Assembly: GCA_030683105.1 (NCBI GenBank)
Contig: JAUXMZ010000012.1
Coordinates: 50,899-114,898, forward strand
DNA from: Burkholderiales bacterium
Lineage (GTDB): Bacteria > Pseudomonadota > Gammaproteobacteria > Burkholderiales > SG8-41
Reading direction: 5' to 3'
Length of the DNA: 64,000 nt
Shown here: positions 9,547-49,578 of the stretch, piece after piece
Layout of the letters: the number at the start of each line of letters is the position of its first letter
Position numbering within the stretch: position 1 is the stretch's first letter
Made by a program: the position numbers and the translations under genes
The notes under the pieces: model-generated
Told to the model about the DNA's origin: nothing
Databases searched by the model: none
Seen by the model: the letters and a program-made list of their open reading frames with translations, nothing else

Positions 9547-10707
9547 CTATATCTGCATCGGGCGCCAATAGCCTGTCATTTCCAGGTAACCGGATCCTGC
9601 TGGTTTGCCATGTTGCAGCGCACGAACCGCACCTTCCCAGTAGATCGTGCCGGTGGAAAGGCGCGTATCGTATTCCTGATCGTCCATCAGCGGCTCGATC
9701 TCGAATGCCAGGGCGCCGGCGCTGATGTGCCATGAAACCGGATAGGCGGTGCCGGTGCGCGGCGAGCGCCACTCGCGGCGCGGCGTGAAGACGACATCCT
9801 GCACGCCCAGGGTGCGGGTTACCCCATCCGGGCTGCGATAGGAGCCGCCCGCCCAGAATCTGCCGCCTTGGCGGTCGCGCATGCGAAACGCCATCAATGC
9901 GCCGCCGTTGGCAAGGTTGATGCCGATCCAGTCCCAGCCTGTTGCGTCCTTGTCCATGTAGCGGGACGACCACTCGTGGTCCAGCCATGCGCTGCCGGAG
10001 ATGGATTGCGCTTTACCGTTGCGGGTCAATGCGCCGTTAACCTTGAGCTGGGGCAGGCTGTAATAATAGCTGGCCGATTCCGGATCGGGGCCTTTGCGGC
10101 TGTAGCCATTCACGCCCTGCAGCAGTGGGGGTTGGGTCGCTGCAAACGTGAAATCGAACTGGAAGTCGCGGGCGGAGATGCTTGCACGGTAGCCCGGCCC
10201 GACCTGATGCAACGTCCAGCCGTCTATCCAGACCTCGAGCCGGTCCCGGCTCGCGCCGGCAAGTCCCAATCCGGCGCGTGCCACGCGCTGGTCGTGTCGC
10301 AGCCTGCCGAAAGCCGGGTCGCTCAGCGCGGCGTGCGCAATCAGGATCTGCCGCGGCGCGAAAGCACTCGGGTTCACATCGTCCAATCTAAGCCGGGCGC
10401 GAAAAAAAGTAATCTGGAAGCCAAGTTTTGTGCCGTCGGGAACATCGAGCCAGCCGGTCAGGTACCACCACTCTGTACGGAATCCGGGATGGCTGCCTTC
10501 GTCACGCGGGAACCGCAACTGGTATCCCGGCACCACTGGTGCGAACTGTGACTGGTACCCCTCAAGAGGGTATTGAAAAGAATGACTGGTAACTGGTGAT
10601 TGGTTGCTGGTGACTTGCGCGAAAGTTCTTGGCGCGACAAATGCACCCGCCAGCCACGCCAGCATGCGCCGTCTCTTGAATACGGGTTTTATCCCTTCAC
10701 TCTTCAC
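9547..10707 (-). CDS. Lipocalin-like/AttH-type predicted secreted hydrolase (carotenoid 1,2-hydratase-like fold)
   Basis: Signal peptide-like N-terminus, FPRDEGSHPGFRTEWWYLTGWL and SGSAWLDHEWSS motifs typical of AttH/CrtC-like proteins; next to FtsX/LolD-type ABC genes. Confidence 0.8.
   Translation of the reverse strand: MKSEGIKPVFKRRRMLAWLAGAFVAPRTFAQVTSNQSPVTSHSFQYPLEGYQSQFAPVVPGYQLRFPRDEGSHPGFRTEWWYLTGWLDVPDGTKLGFQITFFRARLRLDDVNPSAFAPRQILIAHAALSDPAFGRLRHDQRVARAGLGLAGASRDRLEVWIDGWTLHQVGPGYRASISARDFQFDFTFAATQPPLLQGVNGYSRKGPDPESASYYYSLPQLKVNGALTRNGKAQSISGSAWLDHEWSSRYMDKDATGWDWIGINLANGGALMAFRMRDRQGGRFWAGGSYRSPDGVTRTLGVQDVVFTPRREWRSPRTGTAYPVSWHISAGALAFEIEPLMDDQEYDTRLSTGTIYWEGAVRALQHGKPAGSGYLEMTGYWRPMQI
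10557..10583 (+). repeat. 27-bp hairpin-tail element, copy A (inside the AttH-like CDS, in frame)
   Basis: ACCCCTCAAGAGGGTATTGAAAAGAAT; deletion restores gactggt-gactggt-aactggt host periodicity. Confidence 0.75.
10584..10618. repeat. Short-period degenerate repeat (actggt type)
   Basis: gactggtaactggtgattggttgctggtgactt; continues left of the 27-bp element. Confidence 0.6.
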
Positions 10708-10722
10708 CCTTCACCCTTCACC
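10693..10722. repeat. Tandem 7-bp repeat (TTCACYC)n
   Basis: cccttcactcttcacccttcacccttcacc between two CDSs. Confidence 0.75.
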
Positions 10723-10728
10723 TAAAAA

Positions 10729-13254
10729 TCACCAGTCTTCCCGCACCGCACTCAATACGCTGCGGTCCATCGCCCGGCGGCCGCTCCACACCGCGGTTGC
10801 GCTGGCAGCGGCGACCAGCGCGGCTGCCAGCCCGGCGAGCGCGAGCCACGGCAGGTGCAAATCCATGCTCCAGTGAAATGACTGGCGGTTGATGACGTGA
10901 ATCAGGATCAGGCTGATCACCCAGCCCAGGGCAAGTCCGACACCGACGCCGAGTCCGGCCACCCAAATGCCCTCGCATCCGAGCATGATGCCGATCTCGC
11001 GGCGCGTCATGCCGACATGACGCAAGACGCCGAATTCGCGGCGCCGGGCCAGCGCCTGTGCGCTGAAACTTACGCTGACGCCGAACAGGCCTATCAGCAC
11101 CGCCACGATCTCGAGGGCGTACGTGATGGCGAAAGTCCGGTCAAAGATGGCTAGCGAGGTGGCGCGTATTTCGCGCGTCTCGGCGATATCGATGCCGTCG
11201 GCGCCGCGCAGGCGCTCGCGTAATGCCTGCCGGGTCTGCTGCAGGGACGCGCCCGCGGCCAGCCACAATGCGGCATCGTTGGCGAGGGTGTCCCCGGTGA
11301 TGCGGATATAGAGATCGCGGTCGATGATGGCGGCGCCGGTCTGTCGCGCATAATCGCGCCAAATCCCGGCTACGGTGAAACGCATGGCCTGTCCGCCTAT
11401 CGGCAGAATGATGTGATCGCCGACATGATATTGAAACAAGTCAGCCGCGATTTCGGAAACCCAAACCGGCGGCGGCTCATCAGCGCGAGGCACGCGCGAG
11501 GGGCCGGTCAAGGGCAGGGTGTGGTGTGCCGCGCCGGCATCGACCGGACGCGCGAGCAGGGAGATCGGCGGCCGGTCGGGCCCAAGCAGCAGGTTCTGGC
11601 TGCGCAGGAACCTGACGCTGGCGACACCGGGCGTGCCGGCGATGCGTGCCTGTTCCTCGCTGGTGAAAAACCCCGTCTCGCCGCCGCGCGCCGCGCGCAA
11701 ATAAAGATCGGCCGGCAGGACGCGGGTCAGCCAGTGATCGAGCGAATTTCGAAAAGATCCGACCATGATCAGCATGGCGACCATCAGGCTGAAGCTGGTC
11801 ACTATGGCCGTGATGCTGATGGCAACATGGCGCGGCGACGCCTTCAATTGCGCGGTCGCGAGCAGCGCCGGCGGGAAGCGCGGCGCCGGCAGGCGCGGCA
11901 GTAAGACTGCGACGAGCCAAGGCAGGATGAGGATGGTGCCGAGCAGGATCAGCGCGATCGCCAGGTATCCCAACAGCGGCAGGCCCGTGAGCGCAGGGGC
12001 TTGCGTGCACGCCAGTCCGAAGCCGATCAGCGCCATTCCGTATGGCATAGCCCTTTGTTTTTTAAATGATTCTTCTTCATCTTTTGCTTTCAGCGCCAGT
12101 GCCGGCGCGCGCCGGCCGGCTTCGATTGCCGGCAATGTCGCGCCCAGCACGCAGAATGCGATGCCGAGCAGCCAGAACAAGGCGAGCGCACCGGGCTCGA
12201 CGTGCAGCGCAGGGGAAATCGCATCGAAATAACCTGCGCCCAGATCGGTGCCGAAATGCTTGAGCATGGCAGCGGCAACGCCATAACCCAGGACGACGCC
12301 CAGCGTGGAGCCCGCTACGCCCATCAAGGCGCCTTCGGCGACCAGGAGTCTGACCAGCGCCAGGCGGGTCAGGCCGGTCACCCGCAGCAACGCGAAATGC
12401 GTGCGCCGGCGCAAGACGGAAAGCACCTGTGTGGAATACACCAGGAAAGCCCCGGTGAATAACGCCACCAAGGCCAGCATATCGAGATTGAGACGGTAGG
12501 CGCGCGACACGCTGGCGCTGCGCTCGACCTCGACGTCAGGGGTGGTCACGATAACGCCCGCGGGCAGCAGCGTTGCGAGATCGTGCCGAAAGGCCGCAAT
12601 ATCGACGCCTGGATGCAATCGCAGATCGATGCGGTTGAGCCGACCCAGCCTGGCCAGACGCCACTGCGCCGAGGCGATGTCCATGACGCCAAGCCTCTGG
12701 CGGTAAGCGCTAGGCGGCAGCAGGCCCGCCACCTTCAGTTCTATGCTTGTAGTGCCGACGTACGCGCGCAACGTATCGCCAGCCTTCATGCCCAGCCAAT
12801 CGGCAGCGGCATGGCTCAGCAGCACTGCATCGGGGTCGAGGAGGTCGGTGATCTGATTCTGCATGCCGGCCAGCAATGCTGGCTGAATCATTGCCATGCG
12901 AAATGGATCGATACCGATCAGTTTTAATCTGTCGCTGCTGCCAGAGAGCGGCACATCGATTTCCACCGCGGGACTAACTGCCTGAACTTGTGGCAGGCGG
13001 GCCACTTTGGGATACAGTTCTTCGGCAAAACCGGCGCGCGGGCCTCTGATCACGAGATCGACTTTGCCGGTGAGGCCGCGCACGGCAAGGCTGAATTCGT
13101 TCAGCGCGCTGGCATTGATCAGATGGACCGCAACCCCCAAGGACACACCCAGCGCTATCCCGAGCAGCGCGAGGAAAAAGCGGCCGGGATTGTCGTGAAG
13201 CGCGCCTGCGGATGCTGCATGAAACAACGCCCTCAATGTCGCTGCGCGCATCAT
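10729..13254 (-). CDS. FtsX-family ABC transporter permease (MacB/LolC-like)
   Basis: 841 aa, duplicated FtsX-like TM architecture (GIALGVSLGVAVHLIN... LRHVGMTRREIGIMLGCEG). Confidence 0.9.
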   Translation of the reverse strand: MMRAATLRALFHAASAGALHDNPGRFFLALLGIALGVSLGVAVHLINASALNEFSLAVRGLTGKVDLVIRGPRAGFAEELYPKVARLPQVQAVSPAVEIDVPLSGSSDRLKLIGIDPFRMAMIQPALLAGMQNQITDLLDPDAVLLSHAAADWLGMKAGDTLRAYVGTTSIELKVAGLLPPSAYRQRLGVMDIASAQWRLARLGRLNRIDLRLHPGVDIAAFRHDLATLLPAGVIVTTPDVEVERSASVSRAYRLNLDMLALVALFTGAFLVYSTQVLSVLRRRTHFALLRVTGLTRLALVRLLVAEGALMGVAGSTLGVVLGYGVAAAMLKHFGTDLGAGYFDAISPALHVEPGALALFWLLGIAFCVLGATLPAIEAGRRAPALALKAKDEEESFKKQRAMPYGMALIGFGLACTQAPALTGLPLLGYLAIALILLGTILILPWLVAVLLPRLPAPRFPPALLATAQLKASPRHVAISITAIVTSFSLMVAMLIMVGSFRNSLDHWLTRVLPADLYLRAARGGETGFFTSEEQARIAGTPGVASVRFLRSQNLLLGPDRPPISLLARPVDAGAAHHTLPLTGPSRVPRADEPPPVWVSEIAADLFQYHVGDHIILPIGGQAMRFTVAGIWRDYARQTGAAIIDRDLYIRITGDTLANDAALWLAAGASLQQTRQALRERLRGADGIDIAETREIRATSLAIFDRTFAITYALEIVAVLIGLFGVSVSFSAQALARRREFGVLRHVGMTRREIGIMLGCEGIWVAGLGVGVGLALGWVISLILIHVINRQSFHWSMDLHLPWLALAGLAAALVAAASATAVWSGRRAMDRSVLSAVREDW

Positions 13255-16968: not shown

Positions 16969-17160
16969 AGCATGAACACGAAGGAAAATCAAAAACTGAA
17001 AAGCAATGACACGAAGGACACGAAGGAAAATCTTTAAAAAATATTAACCACATGATTCATACAGAACTTGGTTGTAATTGTTTATTTTTATTTGTTTTAC
17101 CTTCGTATCCTTTGTGTACCCGTCGAGCGGGTATTGAAAAGAATCCTTCGTGTTTATGCT
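16969..17160. repeat. Inverted pair of period-9 repeats (acacgaagg / ccttcgtgt)
   Basis: aacacgaagg...gacacgaaggacacgaaggaaaatc (left) and ccttcgtatcctttgtgt...ccttcgtgttt (right) flank an AT-rich spacer. Confidence 0.7.
17118..17144 (+). repeat. 27-bp hairpin-tail element, copy B
   Basis: ACCCGTCGAGCGGGTATTGAAAAGAAT; perfect stem TACCCG/CGGGTA; interrupts the period-9 repeat cctttgtgt|ccttcgtgt. Confidence 0.8.
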
Positions 17161-25874: not shown

Positions 25875-26075
25875 CATTGACACAAAGGACACAAAGGGTT
25901 CTTCTCAATACCCCCTCGAGGGGTACACGAAGGAAAAACAAGAAAAAGATAAATTTCCTTAGCATTTTTATTATACAGCCGACCTCCTGTGGCAACGGCA
26001 AGCTTGCGGAGCTTTTGCACTCATGACGTGTTTTGATCTTCCTTTGTGTCCTTTGTGTCCTTCGTGTTTCAGCTT
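25875..26075. repeat. Inverted pair of period-9 repeats (gacacaaag / cctttgtgt)
   Basis: gacacaaaggacacaaagg...acacgaagg (left) and cctttgtgtcctttgtgtccttcgtgttt (right). Confidence 0.75.
25898..25924 (-). repeat. 27-bp hairpin-tail element, copy C
   Basis: Reverse complement ACCCCTCGAGGGGGTATTGAGAAGAAC; deletion leaves gacacaaag-gacacaaag-gacacgaag-g exactly. Confidence 0.8.
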
Positions 26076-30368: not shown

Positions 30369-31196
30369 ATGAGCTTCGACCTGCACAGCCATTCCACGTA
30401 TTCCGATGGGTTGCTGACGCCGTTCCAACTGGTCGCACGCGCGGCCGGGCGCGGGGTGGATACGCTGGCACTGACCGATCACGACGAACTCAGCGGTCTT
30501 GCCGCTGCGCGTGACGCGGCCCAGGAACTGGGCATCACGCTGGTCAACGGCGTGGAAATATCCGTGTCATGGCATACGCTGACGCTGCATATTGTCGGTT
30601 TGCAAGTCGACCCCGGGAACCGCGATCTTGATATGGGTCTGCAACAGATCCGCCATGGCCGGCTGCGCCGTGCAGAAGCGATGGCGAAGAGCCTGGAACA
30701 GGCGGGGATTACCGGCAGTCTTGAGGGCGCGCGTGCTTACGCCGCGAATCCAGAACTGGTCAGCCGCACGCATTTTGCACGTTATCTGGTTGAGCGCGGC
30801 CATGCGCGCGATGTCGCTGCCGTGTTCAAAAAATACCTGACGGGAGACAAGCCCGGCTACGTGCCGCACCAGTGGGCCAGCCTGCAGCAGGCGGTGGGTT
30901 GGATCAGGATGAGCGGCGGCATGGCGGTGCTGGCCCATCCCGGGCGCTACAAGCTCGGCAATGCGCAGCGCGATGTGTTGCTCGCAGAATTCAAGGATCT
31001 GGGCGGCGTTGGCATTGAAGTGGTTAGCGGCAGTCACACCGAGCGCCAATTTGCCGACTGGGGCCGTCATGCGCAACGCCACGGATTACTGGCATCGGCG
31101 GGGTCCGATTTTCACGGCCCCGGTGAAAGTTATCGCGATCTCGGCGATCTGCCGGCGCTGCCCGCCGGGTGCACGCCGGTGTGGGAGCAATGGTAG
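30369..31196 (+). CDS. PHP-domain phosphoesterase (3',5'-nucleoside bisphosphate phosphatase/RNase AM-like)
   Basis: MSFDLHSHSTYSDGLLTPFQLVARAAGRGVDTLALTDHDELSG. Confidence 0.92.
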   Translation: MSFDLHSHSTYSDGLLTPFQLVARAAGRGVDTLALTDHDELSGLAAARDAAQELGITLVNGVEISVSWHTLTLHIVGLQVDPGNRDLDMGLQQIRHGRLRRAEAMAKSLEQAGITGSLEGARAYAANPELVSRTHFARYLVERGHARDVAAVFKKYLTGDKPGYVPHQWASLQQAVGWIRMSGGMAVLAHPGRYKLGNAQRDVLLAEFKDLGGVGIEVVSGSHTERQFADWGRHAQRHGLLASAGSDFHGPGESYRDLGDLPALPAGCTPVWEQW

Positions 31197-31280
31197 TGTT
31201 GAGTTTTGAGTGTTAAGTGTTGAGTTAATTTCTTAAGCGTCTGTAATTCACTAAAAACTCAACACTCAAAACTCAACACT
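31195..31280. repeat. Inverted repeat (20-bp perfect arms) of short-period ttgagtgtt units
   Basis: agtgttgagttttgagtgtt (31195-31214) and aacactcaaaactcaacact (31261-31280). Confidence 0.85.
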
Positions 31281-31288
31281 AAAAAAAC

Positions 31289-49515: not shown

Positions 49516-49578
49516 AGCCGCCGATGAATTCACTTTTATACCCGCTTGACGGGTATAAAAGTGAATTCATCGGCGGCT
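49516..49578. repeat. 63-bp perfect hairpin (29-bp arms, 5-nt loop); contains copy D of the 27-bp element
   Basis: agccgccgatgaattcacttttatacccg-cttga-cgggtataaaagtgaattcatcggcggct. Confidence 0.85.

Follow-up and report, generated by a model that had tools for sequence, protein, structure and literature searches.

The 27 nucleotides at positions 10556–10582 of the window (the whole stretch of 64,000 nucleotides analysed here) are, with high probability, a copy of a non-autonomous mobile element, which would have entered a heptad array at a point where attH was already coding for a dispensable linker. This reading, drawn from sequence comparison, relies on the exact restoration of the host array when 27 bp is removed, on the many copies of the same sequence in this genome, and on empty and filled sites in the pheT gene of another genus.

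The insertion in attH

The features of the attH region are as follows.
9547–10707, minus strand: attH gene, encoding a CrtC/AttH-like two-domain lipocalin (PF07143 and PF17186)
10615–10707, minus strand: signal-peptide coding part of attH, RRRMLAWLAGAFVAPRTFA, conserved in orthologues
10549–10614, plus strand: GACTGGT-type heptad host array, split by the 27-mer
10556–10582, plus strand: copy of the 27-bp element, TACCCCTCAAGAGGGTATTGAAAAGAA, antisense to attH, with the hairpin at 10556–10572 and the tail at 10573–10582

A domain search of the attH product matched both the CrtC N-terminal and the Lipocalin_9 domains, and genes for an FtsX-type permease and an ABC ATPase sit upstream of attH. 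The sequence-only reading had described an in-frame insertion of nested repeats at the junction between the signal peptide and the mature protein, and both the sequence and its translation are as it described: the segment QVTSNQSPVTSHSFQYPLEGYQSQ separates the signal peptide from FAPVVPGYQLRFP, and within it the 27-mer is read as SFQYPLEGY, i.e., as nine codons that leave the frame intact. The proposed order of events, heptads first and the 27-mer second, is borne out as well. Once exactly 27 bp is deleted, six heptads stand in perfect phase on the coding strand (AGTCACC AGCAACC AATCACC AGTTACC AGTCACC AGTCACA), and the protein reads ...FAQVTSNQSPVTSHQSQFAPVV.... A shift of the copy by one base, to 10557–10583, fits equally well.

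That the host repeat occupies a tolerated linker agrees with the orthologues, whose linkers vary in length and sequence at this place, and with the sole solved relative of the attH product, PDB 2ich ('Putative AttH'; E 1.6e-113), which aligns only from residue 55, directly past the insert. The junction was compared in 29 loci from relatives and this genome, 20 within the family and 9 outside it. A strong period-7 array was found at the junction in 9 of the 20 family orthologues, each with a different unit (e.g., CACGAGT, ACCGCTT and CACGAAT), against a background of 3 in 140 gene-body segments and none of the 9 orthologues outside the family; other attH orthologues have junction repeats of periods other than 7. 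Since many family orthologues carry junction linkers whose units differ, the linker predates this lineage and its sequence turns over. The expectation of a 20–25-residue insertion unique to the lineage is thus contradicted for the heptad linker and stands for the 27-bp part (nine residues), which among the attH orthologues is restricted to this genome.

Heptad arrays of differing unit and length in so many orthologues would also be expected if the extra residues had arisen by replication slippage of the array with no mobile element, and slippage does account for the linker itself. However, the 27-mer bears no relation to the heptads and recurs as the same sequence at more than 100 other sites, and slippage is contradicted by the pheT empty sites described below, which lie outside any array, and by copies in non-repeat targets, which leaves it hardly credible as the origin of the insert.

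The annotated attH start is a GTG at 10707, which lies within a second heptad array of GTGAAGG type (10700–10725). This location, together with GTG codons past the insert (APVV contains GTG GTG), would fit a real start downstream of the insert, in which case VTSNQSPVTSHSFQYPLEGYQSQ would be untranslated leader DNA. However, a downstream start would remove a signal peptide that is conserved family-wide upstream of the junction, and the AttH-type proteins of relatives share the same layout, so that this alternative is very improbable. Because the upstream signal peptide (RRRxLAWLAG...A-Q) is kept in the orthologues, attH translation starts upstream of the insert, as the sequence-only reading had assumed, and a downstream start is not sensible. 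The net effect of the insertion, which adds nine residues to what is predicted to be the exposed N-terminus of an exported lipocalin, is probably near neutral.

In the family as a whole (orthologues L070–L089), complementarity of the linker array to the upstream array (10615–10740) is higher inside a genome than across genomes (0 of 10000 permutations), a pairing that resembles inverted-repeat arms staying matched while the unit changes. Array complementarity was rejected as the cause of the attH site, the pattern being absent in this genome.

The element and its copies in this genome

The consensus of the element, YACCCNTCRAGNGGGTATTGARAAGAA, is 27 nt long and derives from 110 full copies compared in this genome (G000); there are at least 110 full copies here, this number coming from the stretches around copies. 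A search with a 25-nt pattern that tolerated at most 3 mismatches gave 55 matches in this genome vs. 0 for the reversed pattern, and the 17-nt core was matched at 127 places. The first 17 nt of the element form a hairpin of 5–6 bp with the loop TCRAG. Among 85 distinct sequences, stem pair 6–12 is GC in 40, CG in 37, AU in 2, GU in 1 and UG in 1, and its covariation is 0.208 vs. 0.069 for shuffled sequences, a value reached in 0 of 500 shuffles and abolished when the partner position is slid. In the attH copy this pair is C·A, a single broken pair that is common to one other copy in the genome. An adapter-type artefact is excluded by lineage-specific variants, by the covariation, by nesting and by the vertical inheritance of copies. 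No Rfam family was matched near the window copy, and a literature search gave no match for the 27-mer sequence.

Besides the attH copy, the window contains two further full copies and one relative.
17117–17143, plus strand: second full copy, within a 9-mer TCCTTTGTG/TCCTTCGTG array
25899–25925, minus strand: third full copy, within a CCTTTGTGT 9-mer array
49516–49578 (core 49529–49555), no strand assigned: palindromic relative with the same hairpin core and a tail on both sides

The palindromic relative is a 29-bp perfect inverted repeat with a 5-nt loop, and this symmetrical version of the element was seen at two further loci in the genome (L197 and L203). At 31194–31281 of the window, inverted heptad arrays (TAGTGTTGAGTTTTGAGTG...) are opposed at a distance of 14 nt; inverted host arrays of this kind are common near 27-mer copies in other genomes.

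Insertion rules

Restoration of the host array was measured in 28 copies, with the host period (7, 8, 9 or 10) set from one flank only; this fixed period was used in place of a free-period periodicity test, which favoured short periods. Deletion of 27 nt restores the host period with a mean identity of 0.82 across the 28 copies, whereas other deletion lengths give 0.07–0.36, apart from side peaks at 34 (27 + 7; 0.51) and 36 (27 + 9; 0.34, with 4 copies at or above 0.85). The host arrays of the element are heptads and also 9-mer and 10-mer arrays. In this genome, 105 of 110 copies have a G at position −1, as do all 44 copies examined in three other genomes (G013, G082 and G003); beyond this G, a GYG trend is seen in the 110 copies but no longer target motif, and insertion of the element is accompanied by no target duplication. 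The orientation of the element with respect to the host repeat is fixed: for each of several host repeats (GACTGGT, CTTTGTG and ATCGGCG), copies keep to one strand sense.

The element also nests in itself, and many copies stand within other copies, between positions 13 and 14, giving TACCCGTCAAGCG-[27]-GGTATTGAAAAGAA, i.e., the left 13 nt, a complete element and the right 14 nt. There are nine clean cases in which two left halves are followed by two right halves (LLRR), and the few nests with unequal numbers of halves probably reflect later slippage. One nest (L035) has two left and five right halves (LLRRRRR), suggesting that the 14-nt right half slipped after nesting.

Empty sites and in-frame insertions in other genes

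The clearest proof of insertion is the pair of empty and filled sites in pheT of the genus Thioglobus, where the insert is present in 2 genomes belonging to two species and the site is empty in 10. Filled and empty sites differ by exactly 27 bp, at ATYTG^TGGCGG, with neither duplication nor loss. The inserts of the two carriers differ from each other inside the element, so the insert was probably already present in their common ancestor and has persisted in a gene required by the cell.

In-frame inserts were placed against solved structures in MurE of G013, mannose-1-phosphate guanylyltransferase (manC) and oligopeptidase A (opdA). Only in oligopeptidase A is the element read in the frame where it would ordinarily run into a TGA, and the insert there is a variant with TGT. 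In polA of a genome from another family (G082), structural alignment likewise puts the element immediately ahead of the Klenow portion of the polymerase (DNA polymerase I), and further in-frame inserts occur in HrpA, PheS, GalU, Aat, TldD (near its N-terminus) and a reverse transcriptase. Heptad-encoded residues adjoin the element in some of these proteins. The reverse transcriptase, from a Thioglobus relative (G123, L343:1501–2694), has a diverged in-frame copy before its LPIGNLTSQLF motif. MurG of G013 (L301:6940–8163) has a 27-mer near its start and, in addition, a second heptad-like in-frame insertion that lacks the 27-mer, TETGAHPRARSFSSLIPHPSSFTVVGNP.

Because the element is nine codons long and stop-free in 4 of 6 frames, it can be tolerated within genes and is expected to be translated; the prediction is that bacteria probably do translate it into their proteins.

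Distribution

The element was found in 10 of 100 relatives, this genome counted, with 1 to 45 copies outside this genome. Among the matches listed (one genome per species), the carriers are Betaproteobacteria, Gammaproteobacteria and Desulfobulbaceae (Desulfobacterota), the last including a Desulforhopalus metagenome-assembled genome (MAG) with 76 copies, the highest count among these carriers. Thiobacillus denitrificans RG, a named isolate, is a carrier, and one Acidobacteria MAG, which may be contaminated, was also matched. A sample of 398 further genomes from across the phylum gave no match, so that the spread is patchy and there is no chance background. Such a spread would be best explained by horizontal transfer together with local multiplication. 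Searches of plasmid and phage records returned chance partial matches only.

Three IMG/VR contigs, putatively viral (L362–L364), each carry a copy, two of them in identical sequence. At three loci of the Desulforhopalus MAG (L107, L143 and L147), the 27-mer is part of a longer dispersed repeat and has beside it a sibling family of 27-mers, CACCCCTCAAGGGGGTACTAAAAAGAG, in head-to-tail pairs.

Possible routes of movement

In the proposed mechanism, an enzyme supplied in trans would recognise the hairpin, most probably in single-stranded form, and would place the 27-mer 3′ of a G that lies either in slippage-prone repeats rich in G and T or in loops of genes. Three routes of movement were weighed: an HUH enzyme acting on single-stranded DNA is possible, if on balance doubtful; an RNA route is unlikely; and something other than these two comes just short of an even chance.

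Under the HUH reading, the element would be REP-like, and its single-stranded hairpin would be the substrate of a RAYT or of an HUH transposase of the IS200/IS605 type. IS200/IS605 and RAYT systems act on one hairpin, insert in a strand-specific manner without duplicating the target and favour a particular 5′ base, and the element matches them in these four respects. Y1_Tnp genes were found in 24 of the 32 genomes searched and occur in most carriers, and within Thioglobus in all 4 genomes with element matches vs. 3 of 8 others. However, Y1_Tnp is common without the element too (in 69 of 100 relatives), the Y1_Tnp genes examined are not flanked by copies (the nearest lie about 0.6–1.1 kb off), and three carriers (G057, G106 and G114) gave no Y1_Tnp match, a count limited by MAG incompleteness. 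In addition, the family searches gave no cognate transposase gene, a GTAG-type signature was not seen, and a single hairpin with no second end differs from the known REPIN unit (PMC3116915).

Spread through an RNA intermediate, i.e., by reverse transcription, would be consistent with the stem covariation, with the sense orientation of all five Thioglobus insertions and with the presence of reverse transcriptase genes in 16 of 32 genomes. An RNA intermediate has been suggested for some small dispersed repeats (SDRs) of cyanobacteria. On the other side, RVT_1 was not matched in several carriers, among them the Desulforhopalus MAG with 76 copies and Thiobacillus denitrificans RG (again limited by MAG incompleteness), and the insertions in betaproteobacterial genes are mostly antisense.

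Family searches led to the rejection of both the HUH transposase and the reverse transcriptase as a gene linked to the element, as neither tracks it.

The broader reading can be advanced tentatively, at somewhat under even likelihood: a coding-compatible 27-nt family in distant lineages may be spread by an undescribed transposition that uses one hairpin, leaves the target unduplicated and adds nine residues to essential proteins. At 27 bp, the element ranks among the smallest pieces of mobile DNA known. The family occurs outside the cyanobacteria, its empty sites are clean, its hairpin covaries, its target rule is defined and one of its carriers is a named isolate, which makes the movement of such tiny DNA directly testable. 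The repeated in-frame insertion of a peptide into the essential enzymes PheT, PheS and MurE is also a source of protein variation that is known mainly from Rickettsia.

Comparison with known systems

We compare the element with four known systems. The Rickettsia palindromic elements (RPE) are selfish palindromic DNA found in frame in conserved protein genes in a manner compatible with function; they are Rickettsia-specific, about 105–150 bp long, and have terminal inverted repeats (PMC10969869, PMC2229807). The element resembles them in inserting in frame into protein genes, whereas it differs in its length of 27 bp, in having one hairpin at one end and one tail, and in its hosts. REP sequences lie mostly outside genes, and REPINs consist of two such units and are associated with a RAYT gene (PMC3116915). 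While the element shares with both the character of short, palindromic, dispersed and non-autonomous repeats, it occurs as single units in genes and arrays, with no RAYT linked. The heptamer direct repeats TAACTGA of Beggiatoaceae and cyanobacteria are tandem, lie in or near genes and have a patchy distribution (PMC4679880). These resemble the host array rather than the 27-mer; in contrast to them, the heptad units here are GACTGGT and many others, which vary between orthologous sites.

The fourth system comprises the SDR families of Nostoc punctiforme and its relatives, reportedly described by Elhai and colleagues as sequences of about 21–27 nt. These SDRs are said to occur as dispersed copies, to form a hairpin with compensatory changes, to insert precisely into heptameric tandem repeats and to insert into copies of themselves. 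To our knowledge, no enzyme is known for SDRs, and reports of mobile elements around 25 nt in size concern only families of some cyanobacteria and give no mechanism. The SDR families of Nostoc punctiforme are cited in passages of PMC4390886, PMC3116915 and PMC2884548.

We note two differences between the element and SDRs. First, its hosts belong to the Beta- and Gammaproteobacteria and the Desulfobacterota, whereas SDRs are reported from a subgroup of cyanobacteria. Second, it lies repeatedly in frame in conserved genes. The likenesses are several: the element, at 27 nt, falls at the size of SDRs and has many dispersed, near-identical copies (110 here); it is embedded in heptameric repeats, and here also in 9- and 10-mer arrays, which are restored exactly upon its removal; it nests in itself, with nine LLRR cases at a single position; and its copies share a common secondary structure backed by compensatory changes. 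By analogy, the element appears to be SDR-like in how it works, a likeness drawn from the features described rather than from sequence.
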